Assembly (NCBI GenBank): GCA_018693315.1
Contig: JABHLR010000004.1
Location: 1 to 34,137, forward strand
Reading direction: 5' to 3'
DNA: 34,137 nt
Source: an archaeon
Lineage (GTDB): Archaea > Nanobdellota > Nanobdellia > Pacearchaeales > GW2011-AR1
Part shown: positions 1 to 29,466 of the stretch, piece after piece
Numbering within the stretch: the first letter of the stretch is position 1
How the letters are laid out: each line of letters opens with the position of its first letter
Notes under the pieces: model-generated
Seen by the model: only the letters and a program-made list of their open reading frames with translations
What the model was told of the DNA's origin: nothing
The model's database searches: none
Made by a program: the position numbers and the translations under genes

Positions 1-3000
1 AAAAAACTGAACATTAGATATACTAACAAAATGTTGCTCGCTACTATCTCCAGGATTTTGCCAAGCCCAAAATAGAACTGTAGCATTCGTCAAACTTTCC
101 ACTCCATCATTCCCAAAATCAACATAATCCCCATCACCATCAAAAGCAAACCCCTTTCCAAACTTCCCAGCATCAGTCTGAACCGCATTAACAATACTCC
201 CATTATTAGACCCAACATAATCCTCAACCGAAGTAGCATTAGCATCATCCATCCTCCACCACGAAACCAAACTATTATTAATATCAGCAATAATCGTCCC
301 ACTCCCAACCTCAGACGAACTCAAATTATAAACAACAGAACTACTATTATAATAACTATTATTCAAAGGCGAATTCAAAGTCAAAGTAGGACTAGAAGTA
401 TCAACACTAAAATTATTCACTCCACTGTCCACCACATTCCCCGCATAATCCTGAACATAGGCCTGATAACTATGTGAACCATCCGCAAAGCTCTCAGTAT
501 AAGAAACCCGAGTCGCATTATATAACCCAAGAACTTCCTCCGCTGTCAACGACCTGTTCAAAACAATAATATCGTCCATTGAGCCATTCCAATCCCTACC
601 ATTACCCTCTCCACCAATATACCATTCAGAAGTTGCTAAACTTACGTTATCAATAGCTCCTTCATTACAAAGTGTTCCATTAAGATATATCCACCCATAA
701 GTCCCATTACTTGTAACAAGCACATTTACCCAATTGTTCATATCTCCTACCAGAGGAGCATTACAATAAATACCTCCTGCCTGCGAAACTGAATTATACC
801 AACGCAAAACATACATATTATTTATTACCCTTATTCCAGGAGATAACTCACTCCCAAATTTCCTACCAACAACCCATTTGTTTGAGGGAGCCTCTTCTTC
901 GTTTTTCACCCACGCACTAATTGTAAATTCTCGATTCCCAGAAAAATTCAAACTCTGGTCATCCCCCATATCAACATAATCTCCATCCCCATCAAACGAA
1001 AACCCTTTCCCAAACTTCCCATTGTCAACCTGACTAGCATTATCAACAGGAACACCATCATTACTACCAATATAATCACTCACATTAGTACCATTCAAAT
1101 CATCCATCCTCCACCAACTAACCAAACTATTATTCAAATTCGAAACTATCATCGAACTCCCCTCATCACTCGAACTAACATTAATCAAAACCGTCGAATT
1201 ATCATAAACACTATTATTCAAAGGCGAAGCAACACTAACCGAAGGAAACGCAGTATCAACAACAAAACTCTGCACCTCCCCACCATCAACATTCCCAGCC
1301 AAATCCTGAGTCCAACCCCTAAACTCATGCGCCCCATCACCCAACGTCTCAGTATGCTCCAAAGCACTAGCATTATACAACGAAAGTATCTCTTCAACCG
1401 ACAACGACCTATTAAATATCATTACATCATCAACCGAACCATTCCACGAGCTAGGAATCTCTAAACTGTCCGAAGTAGTTGCCGTCACACCAATCCAAGC
1501 AGGAACCGCGGTAGTTCCCTGAACACCATCTACATACACCACCACATTAGTTCCATTTACAAGCCCAACAACATGATGCCAATTCGTATCTTCAATCCCA
1601 TCATTAAAAGCGGCCATGACAGAATCATCAGAACTATTCCAAACAGAAAATTCTATATTTTCTCCAGCATCCCAAGTCAAAGAGAAAAGATCAGTATCCC
1701 CGCTTTGCAGTATAATACCATTGGCTACCGACTTCGCTCCAACAGCACTTTTTACCCAAGCACTAACCGTAAAATCAGTCAACCCCTCAACAGCATCAAC
1801 ATCCCCAAAATCAATATAATCCCCATCCCCATCAAACGAAAATCCCTTCCCAAACTTCCCAGCATCAGTCTGAACAGCACCACTAACAGCCGTCCCATTA
1901 TTCAAACCCAAATAATCAACAACATCACCACTACCATTCAAATCATCCATCCTCCACCAACTCACAAGAGAATTATTAATATCAGCAACAATCGTCCCAC
2001 TCCCAACCTCACTAGAACTCAAATTATAAACAACAGAAGAACTATTATAATAACTATTATTCAAAGGCGAATTCAAAGTCAAAGTCGAACCAACAGTATC
2101 AACACTAAAATCATTCACACCACTATTCCTCACATTCCCCGCATAATCCTGAACATAGGCCTGATAACTATGTGAACCATCCGCAAAGCTCTCAGTATAA
2201 GAAACCCGAGTCGCATTATACAACCCCATTATCTCCGCATCCGTCAACGACCTATTCCAAATCATAACTTCATCAATAGTCCCATTAACATCATTATCTT
2301 CATTTCCATTCGCACCAATCCTAACTGGCGCCTCAGTATCCCTAAGCAAACCAGTCAAAGCAACAGGAGTCGCATCCGCAGCAACACCATTCACATATAT
2401 TTGAACCTCAGAACCATTATAAGTCCCAACAATATGATGCCAATCAAAATCCTCATTAATATTTGACGCACTACTCGCCTCCGCCACAGTATTTGAACCA
2501 TTTCTTACCTCAAATCTCCACGACTCATCATCAGACTTAACAAGTTTCCACACAGAAGAATCACCCGCCTTACTTACATAAAAAAAGCTAGTAGGTAATT
2601 CAATAACATTATTTTTCACCCAAGCACTCACACTAATCTCTGGTATAGCCTCAAACGCCGCGAGATCTCCCCCCATATCAACATAATCATTCACCCCATC
2701 AAAATCAAACCCCTTCCCAAACTTCCCAGCATCAGTCTGACTAGCATCATTAACAACACTACCATTATACACTCCAACATAATCAACAACCCCTCCAGTC
2801 CCATTCAAATCATCCATCCTCCACCACGAAATCAAACTATTATTCAAATTCGAAACAATCATCGAAGTCCCAGCCTCGCTACTCGAAACATTAACCAAAA
2901 CCGAAGAACTATCATAAACACTATTATTAACAGGACTAACAACACTCAAACTCGGAACACAAGTCCCAAGCATCATATCCCTATACAACGGCGAAAACGT

Positions 3001-6000
3001 CCCATCAACAAAACTCGAAGCACAATTCGTATAATTCAAAGCTATCACTCCATCACTCTCCCCAACATTCGAAGCATTATAAATCCCAGACAAAGTAACC
3101 AAAGTATCAACAAAAGTCATATTCCCACCAGTCGCCCCAATCGTCGTTACATTCCCCAAAGACGTTATCGAACTCGTAGCATTAATATAAACAGTCCCAC
3201 CATCTCCTGGAACTTCACCACCATCAAGACAACCCCCACGATTATCAATATCCCCCGAAAAATCAATTGTATTTCCATATAAAGCTATTCTTCCACCCCC
3301 TGCTCCCACTGTTACTCCATCACTATTTAAAGATTCATCTAAAGCAAGAAGAGAACCAGTTCCAGTTAAATTATCCGCAACAATCCAGATGCTTCCTCCA
3401 GCCCCTGCCTGCCCCCACGATTGACGCACCGGAGTAACACTTATATTCCCATCAATTTGCATTATCCCTCCAGATATTAACTTAATTGCCCCTCCTCCTA
3501 AACCAGAATTCCCTCCACTTCCTAAACTTGTTGGCTCTGTTTCAGAACCATACGGGTCATCCTCTCCTATATCACCAGACCCGCCATATCCGCCGTGTCC
3601 TCCACCCTCATTAGTCTCTCCAGAAGCAGGACCCTCACGAATAGCAAATCCCTCTCCCACTCCATCAATACTAGCATTCTCCTGAATTGTAACATTCCCA
3701 CTAACATTAATCACAACTCCCTGCCCATTATCATCAGCAGTCATATTCAAAGGATGAACCCCTAACATAGTCCCATTTGGAATAACCAAATTCCCATTAA
3801 TAGTATAATTTCCAGAAGGAAGACCAATGCTCCCATTTAAAGTCCACCCATCACCAGGCCAAGTATAATTAGTAACTCCGGCTTTACTACCCCACAACAA
3901 AGTTCCAGGCCTTGAAGAACCTGCCCCAGCCCCCTTATCAACACTAATAACCCCATCATAATTATAAGAATCAAAATCTAGTCTTATTCTTCCGCCGCCG
4001 CCGCCATTTCCCGTTGTACCCGACCCACCATCAGCATTTATCGTCCCGCTACCAGTTAAATTATCCGCAACCAACCAAATACTCCCTCCAGAACTAGTAT
4101 CTTGCCAAGTACCATCTACACCCTTCATATCAACAATCCCATCTACCTCTAGCACATTACTTGCCTCTAATTTAATTGCACTCCCTCCTCCATTATTATC
4201 CCCCCCACTTCCCAAACTAGTTGGAGCGCTTGCATTCCCATAAACAACATCACGGTCACCATAACCACCATGACCTCCCGCCTGATTCGTAGACCCATAC
4301 CCCGGCCCAACTTCCGTCGGAAACCCCAACCCAACCCCATCAATAACACCACTACTACCAACACTAATATTCCCATTAACCGAAGTCCAAACTTGCCCCT
4401 CCCCATTCACACTAGTATTATAAGGATAATCCCCATAAACATAAACAGTCCCATTCGACACATCAATATTCCCCGTCACATTCCAATACTGCGTCCCCTC
4501 CATATACAACTCCGCAACCTCCGCCGCCGACAACGACCTATTCCAAATCGCCACCTCATCAATCGAACCGTTCATATCATACGCATCATTTGCCCTTATA
4601 CCAATCCGAAGACCGGTAGTAGAATCACGAATAGAACCTGTTTGCGAAGAAGGACTAGCTCCTTCCGCACCATCTATATAAAGCAAAACGGCTGTCCCAT
4701 TATAGACTCCAACAAGATGATGCCACTCTCCATCTATTATAGCATTATCACCAGTGTTTGAACCTACCATGCCAGAACCCGTATCTACAGAGAAAATAAT
4801 ACGGTCATACGTTCCCCACCTATGAAGACTCCATGATTGCCAAGCAGCAGAACCAGGATTATATTTTGCAACAAAACTATTATCACTGCCAAACTCAACC
4901 TCTTTAACCCAAGCACTCACTGTTAATTCACCCACATTATCAATACCGCTAACATCTCCCATATCAATATAATCCCCAACCCCATCAAACGAATAAGCCC
5001 CAGCCCCCTTCCTCCCTGCAGTAGCAAAAGTAGCATCAGCAACAACACTCCCATTATTTCCATGCCCCGAAAAATCATAAACAACAGTATCATTCTCTCC
5101 ATAAGCAGAATCATTATTCAAATGATACAACCCAACAAGCCCAGTCAAACTAACACCAGAAGTCTCAACCTCTGCAGTTCCATAAGTCCCATTCCCAAAC
5201 AACGAATTCATATAAACACTCCCTCCATAACTTCCACCAACACTAAAATTATTCAAATACTGCGGCATCGTCTCCCTCGTCACATTACAATCATCACTCC
5301 CCGTCCCATTAAATATCACATTATCATAAGCAACAGGCACAGCCCCCTTACTCCAACACGACACATTATCAAACCTCTGAATCGAACCCGTCGAACAATT
5401 CCAAACATTATCAAACGCCGAATGATTCCCCACCCCCATATTATACAACCGCAAAATCTCCGCATCCGACAACGACCTATTATAAATCGCCATCTCATCT
5501 ATCGTCCCATTCCAAAAGTAATCGCCAACCGAATTTGACCCTATCTTAAGCCCATCCGAACCACCCCCAAAAGTCTGTAAAGTTCCGGAAAAAGCAGGAG
5601 GGGTAGCATCAACATTAACAGCATCAACATAAACCTGCACATGAGTCCCATTTAAAACCCCAACAAGATGATGCCAATTTGTATCTTGAATACAATCAAC
5701 ACATCTTGCGGAAGATAATGTATTACTGGTATTATATATATCAAAATTTACATTATCTCCAATATCCCAATTTAAACCAAGCACCCTATCGCCAGCACTA
5801 TTCCCAAATTTAATAACACTATTAACTACACCCGATGAAGCCTCAGCAGTTTTAACCCACGCAGTAACACTCAGAGTACTCCATCCAGAAGTATTAAACC
5901 CAATACCCAAATCAATATCATCATCAACCCCATCAAACTCCATAGCCCCACTAGACAAAATCCCCCCACTAGAATTAAACACCGCCTCAGTATTATTCCC

Positions 6001-27466: not shown

Positions 27467-27940
27467 TTATCCTTTTATTTTCCAAGCAACAACAGCCGCA
27501 ATAATCAACAAAAGAATCATACCAAACCATTCACTATTAGCCCACTCTCCAAGCAACGGCCAATTAACAGCCCAGTTAAAAACATAAGCCGAACTTATCA
27601 CAAAGAGCGCAATAACAACTCCAACCATAGCCCAAGAAAACCAACTATTTTTCGTCAAAAAAGCCAACGGATCCTTTCCTGGCAAAAACGCCAACACAAT
27701 TAACAAAAAGAAAAAACACACTACCAAAACAGCAACCCACGCCGAGCTAAATCTAATAAACTCAACCAAACTAACCTCGACAACAAAAAACGCAGCCAAA
27801 ATCAACGAAATAAAAATCATAATCCACTCACTTCCACCAAGAACCTGAGTCTTCGCAAGCAAGGCATACACTACAATAAACACTAACAAAAACGCAAAGA
27901 TCGGGACAAAATACCCAAATGCTCCTAATGCTGCTGCCAT
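27467..27940 (-). CDS. Multi-pass membrane protein, tandem paralogue 1
   Basis: 157 residues with four to five hydrophobic helices. Helix 1 reads PIFAFLLVFIVVYALLAKTQ, matching the PFLL-x-F-x-VVFAI-x-x-K-[ST]-K pattern of the next two genes. Function unknown. Own TATA box (AAATATATAAACG, 27961-27972) 26 nt from the start. Confidence 0.7.
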   Translation of the reverse strand: MAAALGAFGYFVPIFAFLLVFIVVYALLAKTQVLGGSEWIMIFISLILAAFFVVEVSLVEFIRFSSAWVAVLVVCFFFLLIVLAFLPGKDPLAFLTKNSWFSWAMVGVVIALFVISSAYVFNWAVNWPLLGEWANSEWFGMILLLIIAAVVAWKIKG

Positions 27941-27960
27941 AACAAATCAACAGAAAAAGC

Positions 27961-27972
27961 GTTTATATATTT
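27961..27972 (-). promoter_or_regulatory. TATA box of tandem paralogue 1
   Basis: AAATATATAAAC in the minus direction, centred 26 nt from the ATG at 27940. Confidence 0.6.
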
Positions 27973-27978
27973 ATGGAA

Positions 27979-28494
27979 TTACCCGTTAGCCTTGTCCTTA
28001 CTGTTAGCGACAACCGCAATCACAGCAATAATAACACCCAAAACAATCAGTGCCCACACATTCTCAACAAACCATCCACCAAACCCAGAATAACTACTCC
28101 ACTGATCCCACGAAGCCAAAGCCCAAATGAAAACACCAATACCAACAACCCATCCAACCCAAGCAACCTTATGGCTCCACTTTCCATCTTTATCCTCAGG
28201 AAAAAAGAATCCCAAGAAAATTAACACTACCAAAAACAAAGACAACCCTACACCAAATCTAGGAAACACTATAGCAAAAAACTCAGATACAAAATCAAAC
28301 TGCAGCGACAATAAAGAAATCGAAACCGCAATCAATGCAATAATTCCCCTATTGTCCTTACCTTGACTAGAAAACATCTTCGTCTTATCCATAATAGCAA
28401 ACACAACAGCAAAAATCAACAGAAACGGAATTACATAAGAAAACACTCCAATATCATTCCAGATATTCAACACCTCAGTAACTGTCGTAACCAT
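27979..28494 (-). CDS. Multi-pass membrane protein, tandem paralogue 2
   Basis: 171 residues with four hydrophobic helices. IPFLLIFAVVFAIMDKTKMF aligns with helix 1 and the short basic loop of both neighbours; the loop QGKDNRGIIALIAV also matches paralogue 3 (KAQIDAIVALVIG). Tryptophan-rich loop before the last helix. Function unknown. Confidence 0.7.
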   Translation of the reverse strand: MVTTVTEVLNIWNDIGVFSYVIPFLLIFAVVFAIMDKTKMFSSQGKDNRGIIALIAVSISLLSLQFDFVSEFFAIVFPRFGVGLSLFLVVLIFLGFFFPEDKDGKWSHKVAWVGWVVGIGVFIWALASWDQWSSYSGFGGWFVENVWALIVLGVIIAVIAVVANSKDKANG

Positions 28495-28511
28495 GCAATC
28501 TTAAAAGAATT

Positions 28512-28525
28512 CTTATTTATATATG
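28512..28525 (-). promoter_or_regulatory. TATA box of tandem paralogue 2
   Basis: CATATATAAATAAG centred 25 nt upstream of the ATG at 28494; lies between this gene and the long hairpin. Confidence 0.6.
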
Positions 28526-28544
28526 TTTTGACAATCAAACAATC

Positions 28545-28641
28545 TTAATTCTTAACAAGAAAGTTCGCCGTGTAAAAATTTTCGACGTGTGCAAGTGCAC
28601 ATAAGAAAATATTTTACCAAGAAATTTTCGTTAAGAATTAA
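28545..28641. repeat. 97-nt nested inverted repeat (long hairpin)
   Basis: Outer arms TTAATTCTTAAC (28545-28556) and GTTAAGAATTAA (28630-28641) are perfect complements. Inside them GTAAAAATTTTC pairs with GAAAATATTTTAC with a single bulge, and the apex is TGTGC-AAGT-GCACA. The structure begins 3 nt after the stop codon of the upstream membrane-protein gene and ends before the next promoter. It lacks a T-tract, so a simple terminator is not obvious; a structured 3' UTR, a small RNA or a degenerate mobile repeat are alternatives. Confidence 0.7.
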
Positions 28642-28643
28642 AA

Positions 28644-29129
28644 TTAATCGTCTTTCTTTTTACGACCACTCATAATTGCAACAGCCATCGCACCGATTAT
28701 CAAAAGAATCATAACAGCATTGACCCAAATGTCGCTACTACCCGACCCCGAAAACCAATCCAAAATTATATTTCCAAGCCCACTAATATACAAGACTATA
28801 ACAATCGTGAAAATCCCAGCCAAAATCCCAAAAGTAATCTTCATCCAATCAGGAGCCTTCGACAAATCTCCAGCAACAAATCCGTACAAAATTAAAAACA
28901 CTAAAATCACAGCAACACCAACAGCCATCCACGGCATTATCCCAACAATAATATTCCTCGGCTGTGGAAGCCCAATTAAAAGCAAGCCAATAACCAAAGC
29001 AACAATCGCATCAATCTGCGCCTTCCCTTCGCCCAAAATCTTAGACTTCTGCAAAATAGCGAACACAACAACGAACACGAGTAAGAACGGCAACAACATC
29101 TCCGTAAAGAATGGGTTATCAAATATCAT
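28644..29129 (-). CDS. Multi-pass membrane protein, tandem paralogue 3
   Basis: 161 residues, four to five hydrophobic helices, short basic tail (GRKKKDD). LPFLLVFVVVFAILQKSKIL is the clearest version of the motif shared with the other two paralogues. Function unknown; small family of membrane proteins near pilus genes. Confidence 0.7.
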   Translation of the reverse strand: MIFDNPFFTEMLLPFLLVFVVVFAILQKSKILGEGKAQIDAIVALVIGLLLIGLPQPRNIIVGIMPWMAVGVAVILVFLILYGFVAGDLSKAPDWMKITFGILAGIFTIVIVLYISGLGNIILDWFSGSGSSDIWVNAVMILLIIGAMAVAIMSGRKKKDD

Positions 29130-29148
29130 ACATCTCTAAAAACTAAAA

Positions 29149-29160
29149 CCTATTTAAATA
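29149..29160 (-). promoter_or_regulatory. TATA box of tandem paralogue 3
   Basis: TATTTAAATAGG in the minus direction, centred 25 nt from the ATG at 29129. Confidence 0.6.
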
Positions 29161-29169
29161 TTCCTAAAA

Positions 29170-29466
29170 CTAAACCAAAGCCTCTTCATCTAGAGAACCC
29201 ATGTCCTCTTCCTCTGTCTGAACAGGAACCGCATTCTTATTGATTATAACAATATCCCCAATCGCCTTAATGAACTGGTGCGGAACAATAATCCCTCGAG
29301 CTCCACCAAGAATCTGAACCATTCCGGACTCACGAGCAACGACAATTCTCCAACCGTCGACCTTATTATCCATCAAATTAACTTCCTCAATCATCCCAAA
29401 CAAATCGCCAGAATCAGTATACACTCTCCTTCCGACAACCTCGCTCATTCTTTTTATTCTTAACAT
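29170..29466 (-). CDS. PRC-barrel domain protein
   Basis: 98 residues, soluble. GRRVYTDSGDLFGMIEEVNL then DGWRIVV, GGARGIIVPHQFIKAIGDIV: the strand pattern of the archaeal small PRC-barrel family, thought to bind RNA or proteins in RNA metabolism and cell division contexts. The ATG at 29466 is placed 25 nt from a TATA box and is kept; the internal ATG at 29448 is an alternative. Confidence 0.85.
   Translation of the reverse strand: MLRIKRMSEVVGRRVYTDSGDLFGMIEEVNLMDNKVDGWRIVVARESGMVQILGGARGIIVPHQFIKAIGDIVIINKNAVPVQTEEEDMGSLDEEALV

Follow-up and report, generated by a model that had tools for sequence, protein, structure and literature searches.

Among the described systems closest to the element considered here, REPs are dispersed extragenic palindromes found mostly downstream of coding regions, and some REPs contribute, at their ends, the stop codon of the adjacent open reading frame (PMC3733652). 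A single REP is 20-40 bp long and carries a GTAG or CGTC tag (PMC3733652). The hairpin described below lies between two membrane-protein genes of a Pacearchaeota genome, in a stretch of 34,137 nucleotides that is called the window throughout. Rather than standing alone, it belongs to a dispersed family of structured elements. A search of the available literature found no description of this hairpin family, and, to our knowledge, the 3'-end biology of DPANN archaea has been little explored.

The nested hairpin that had been noticed at positions 28545-28641 is real, and its best limits are a little wider, 28538-28647 (110 bases). A 131-nucleotide stretch around it folds with -30.7 kcal/mol, compared to a mean of -15.7 kcal/mol for its shuffled versions (z -4.65), and none of 200 shuffles is as good. 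The nested arms are found at 28541-28561 with 28625-28645 and at 28574-28583 with 28605-28614, and there is an apical stem. On the minus strand, the whole element is a type A copy with three nested helices and conserved internal loops, as judged by its score with covariance model R1 (110.3 bits compared to 40.7 bits on the plus strand), the z value of its fold and the covariation in 35 copies. The outer stem corresponds to inverted repeat I1. Its 5' arm (28625-28646, minus strand) includes a stop codon, and its 3' arm (28540-28561, minus strand) covaries with the 5' arm; among orthologous copies, the outer stem is what stays with the locus. The region between them (28562-28624, minus strand), which the subtypes and a permutation test identify as the part exchanged between copies of the same genome, contains the type A middle module, CTTGGTAAAA / TTTTACACGGCG, and the apex, CTTATGTGC-ACTT-GCACACGTCG.

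According to the list of open reading frames, the gene upstream of the element (28644-29129, minus strand) encodes a 161-residue membrane protein, the TAA stop codon of which (28644-28646) is at the edge of the element. The protein has no Pfam match; when the upstream proteins are grouped, its homologues in genomes G009, G014 and G015 likewise precede a copy of the element. The downstream gene (27979-28494, minus strand) encodes a 171-residue protein and has its own TATA-like sequence, CATATATAAATA, about 15 bases past the element. The two flanking genes had been described as paralogues, and they do share 29% identity (E 8e-11); a third paralogue follows. The three tandem small membrane proteins adjoin a PRC-barrel gene (window positions 27467-29466), and one of them has homologues in 15 of the 16 genomes of the genus.

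The 674-kb genome that contains the window has 11 distinct copies, detected with model R1, which was built from 35 copies, and model R2, which was built from a second subtype. A plain DNA search finds its copies on contigs C3, C5 and C6, and copies in relatives, mostly of the same genus. Distinct copies were counted by position, as raw match counts also pick up the palindromes in antisense. Copies are present in 13 of 16 congeneric Pacearchaeota genomes, and the number per genome runs from 0 to about 24, with about 24 in G009, 22-23 in G015 and none in G004, G006 and G012. The element is not essential, because its copy number varies this widely among congeneric genomes and orthologous sites frequently lack it. 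A few other genera within the same family also carry copies. Of 200 genomes sampled across the order, 19 have matches, and these belong to a single family; a phylum-wide sample of 371 genomes yields no match in any other family. The carriers found by a pattern scan of GTDB are Candidatus Pacearchaeota, unnamed archaeon MAGs and one contig of a Desulfobacteraceae MAG. The latter copy (L055:1075-1190, 89.6 bits) is near tRNA-Ser and Radical SAM genes on a contig with 49% GC, and transfer, a chimeric contig or misbinning may account for it. Viral contigs scanned with the type A pattern contain no match. The element reaches the gathering score of no family in Rfam 15, and its only weak matches, to microRNA precursors, are taken as chance hairpin hits.

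The pairing of the element is maintained, as the overwhelming covariation among copies from related genomes demonstrates. Changes on both sides of a pair are present in 27 of the 39 pairs in an alignment of 35 type A copies, and in 27 of the 35 pairs in an alignment of 36 type B copies. The fraction of paired cells is 94.9% for type A and 95.3% for type B, and falls to 31-53% when the structures are slid; none of 500 shuffles of either alignment reaches any of the covariation measures. Correction of quasi-palindromes is unlikely to be the sole cause of this covariation, because the internal loops, which are asymmetric, have been conserved. At least three middle modules exist, A (CTTGGTAAAA / TTTTACRCTGCG), B (TACTTCGTTG / CGCCTYGTCTAA) and C (TTTTGTCGTGAT / ATTCTAACTTAAAA), and they have a common apex, CTYAYGTRC-NNNN-GYRCRCNNCG; 87 of 128 copies contain a loose form of this motif. 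Small TACCC...GGGGCA insertions, some with a hairpin of their own, are nested inside several copies (L025:1398-1532, L035:1499-1596, L102:1544-1691 and L150:1574-1722) and are possibly a second short repeat family.

Most copies of the element start at the ends of genes. The orientation of each copy was set by model score alone, before its placement was tested against sense open reading frames of at least 60 residues with a stop codon at -12 to +25 of the element start. A sense gene stops at the element start in 107 of 128 copies, compared to 15 of 128 in the antisense test, and 11 of those 15 also have a sense gene. The offset of the stop codon is identical (4) in 49 of the 128 copies, as in the window copy, and the 5' arm then begins with the TAA; the stop codon is 6 bases further in for 16 copies and 13 bases further in for 7. 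The upstream genes were identified by Pfam, and names ending in '-like' are from our own reading of the sequences. In raw counts of genomes per gene, they are led by S7 (7), RadA (6), EF-1A (5), a PRC-barrel-like gene (5) and a DnaG-like Toprim gene (4). The others include S10, L24e, S3Ae, EF-2-like, eIF-1A, TBP, RtcB, SecY-like, gyrase A, prolyl-, arginyl- and another class I tRNA synthetase, an SRP54-type GTPase, thioredoxin-like, GAPDH-like and rubrerythrin genes. The RadA-like gene at locus L149 of G010 (1734-3299) contains a LAGLIDADG domain and so probably an intein. In G013 and G005, the element begins at the end of the archaeal 16S rRNA. The copy in G014 comes after the GGATCACCTC motif, although the Rfam match to 16S rRNA stops earlier. 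There, at locus L129 (1623-2581), the match ends about 960 bases short of the GGATCACCTC end, so that the 16S rRNA may contain an intron or another insertion.

The element of the window is assigned to the minus strand on the basis of gene placement and model score, because the other two indicators conflict. In favor of the reading preferred below, one pair is always U-G in type B, and another is mostly G-U in type A, when the sense strand is read. The counts of G-U against A-C favor no clear strand, and in 103 of 128 copies it is the antisense strand that has the better fold. This last feature, together with the size, the palindromic form and the position after a stop codon, would also fit an integron attC-like recombination site, and archaeal integrons exist (PMC9668308). 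This identity is highly improbable and largely refuted, as none of the 128 copies has both the RYYYAAC and the GTTRRRY box, and the upstream genes, rather than being cassettes, are core genes whose order is conserved.

Comparison of empty and filled sites makes it possible to place the element relative to the end of the transcript. At EF-1A empty sites (e.g. G004, G007, G013 and G014), the stop codon is followed at once by GGTC..GACC and then by a T-tract. At EF-1A filled sites (G000, which is the genome of the window, G005, G008, G009 and G015), the element separates the stop codon from a T-rich stretch. The S7 locus has copies in G000, G003, G007, G009, G013 and G015 and is empty in several other genomes; in G011, it has a probable remnant of the element. 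These sites suggest that the element most likely sits inside the transcript, before the terminator. The element might itself be a transcription terminator or a 3'-processing signal instead of a stabilizer of the 3' UTR, as its precise position at the ends of genes and of 16S rRNA and the T-runs soon after many copies would allow. T-runs of at least 5 are present within 80 nucleotides downstream of 80 of the 128 copies, compared to A-runs in 29, a difference that in part reflects the T-rich composition downstream. However, the EF-1A empty sites already have a terminator-like hairpin and a T-tract of their own, and the window copy has no clear T-tract, just as the preliminary description had stated. 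A role as terminator or processing signal is thus considered unlikely.

The evolution of the outer stem differs from that of the middle module. Outer arms at orthologous loci are more alike than under permuted labels (0.701 versus 0.639 for the 5' arm and 0.686 versus 0.631 for the 3' arm), and none of 500 permutations reaches these values. The middle module is not more alike at orthologous loci (5' half, 0.570 versus 0.585, 409 of 500 permutations; 3' half, 193 of 500), and is more alike among copies of the same genome in the permutation test. As the outer arms follow the locus and the middle modules follow the genome, the loci persist while the cores are exchanged or re-inserted. Random scatter of about 115 copies over an assumed ~900 genes per genome would give about 0.13 copies per gene in the genus; 6 are observed at S7.

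Part of this behavior resembles that of a non-autonomous mobile element, MITE- or REP-like, with gene 3' ends as its target. The hairpin, formed by DNA or by a single strand, would then serve primarily its own movement, and any effect in RNA would be a by-product. Copies at unrelated loci of the same genome are up to 95% identical, and the nearest neighbor of a copy is orthologous in only 6 of 127 cases. Both empty and filled sites exist, the copy number swings, and presence is patchy; in genus g43, for instance, one genome has 18 matches and three others have none. At the EF-1A locus of the window's own genome (L205/L095), a lone direct repeat, AAACTTTAA, is present on both sides of the element, where empty sites join, and looks like a target duplication. 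However, flanking direct repeats are not in excess over all copies (the mean longest match is 4.94 compared to 5.02 for mismatched flanks). The Y1 transposase (PF01797) does not track the element and is absent from the incomplete assemblies of the carriers G000, G015, G002 and G008. In addition, simple insertion would not be expected to give a nearly one-sided orientation at stop codons, nor to recur at the same genes. Primary mobility therefore remains a minority explanation, to which we give some weight as the main rival of the one preferred below. Of the earlier suggestion of a decayed MITE-like element, dispersal, variable copy number and empty sites stand; decay is contradicted by the maintained pairing, and neither target duplications nor a transposase partner were found.

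By combining these observations, it is possible to propose what the element does. The explanation that we prefer, with somewhat more confidence than doubt, is that the hairpin is a copy of a dispersed family of structured elements of ~106 nucleotides in one Pacearchaeota family, most likely forming the very start of the 3' UTR or of the 16S rRNA trailer. In the mRNA, the element would form a long hairpin between the stop codon and the terminator. This hairpin may mark or protect the 3' end of the transcript, acting as a shield against 3'-to-5' decay, and it might insulate single-gene transcription units. Like bacterial REP elements, the copies would spread and become homogenized through recombination. 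The best reading, as far as sequence comparison can tell, is therefore a REP-like dispersed palindromic element that acts as a structured 3' UTR or trailer RNA. The 3' UTR placement proposed in the preliminary description is strongly supported by the 107 stop codons and the EF-1A sites, and the stabilizing effect proposed with it is plausible by inference; a free-standing small RNA, which that description offered beside it, would be a possible alternative.

A more tentative possibility is that the family represents a novel class of archaeal 3'-end RNA. It would be a modular hairpin at housekeeping stop codons and at the 16S rRNA 3' end, recognized by a dedicated protein or nuclease, with an outer stem bound to its locus and a middle module swapped and homogenized in each genome. 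A strongly covarying Pacearchaeota family that is linked to core-gene stop codons and to 16S rRNA offers a precise and testable way into the question of how reduced archaea define or protect their transcript ends, and its persistent loci with exchanged cores represent an unusual evolutionary mode. Should it prove to be no more than a mobile repeat, it would still be a REP-like family of archaea that lacks the usual transposase.

The element can be compared to several known systems. Like the families of Rfam, it is covarying, structured and RNA-like, but no family reaches the gathering score on it. An intrinsic terminator has a G+C-rich hairpin directly followed by a T-tract, which the window copy does not have; T-runs of at least 5 do lie within 80 nucleotides of 80 of the 128 copies. 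Integron attC sites are likewise long imperfect palindromes directly after a stop codon, whereas their defining R boxes are missing in all 128 copies. The element shares with MITEs its short length, dispersal, variable copy number, inverted repeats and empty sites, and differs from them in its strong internal covariation and in having no excess of target duplications and no known autonomous partner. The element also resembles bacterial REP, REPIN and BIME sequences: the archaeal element is also a dispersed extragenic palindrome near gene 3' ends, plausibly transcribed, with a stop codon at its edge. Unlike REPs associated with TnpA-REP/RAYT, it is not followed by a Y1 transposase, and no GTAG or CGTC tag is present at the ends of its aligned copies. 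It is also about 106 nucleotides long instead of 20-40 bp, has three or more exchangeable middle modules and conserved internal loops, and nearly always shares the orientation of the upstream gene.
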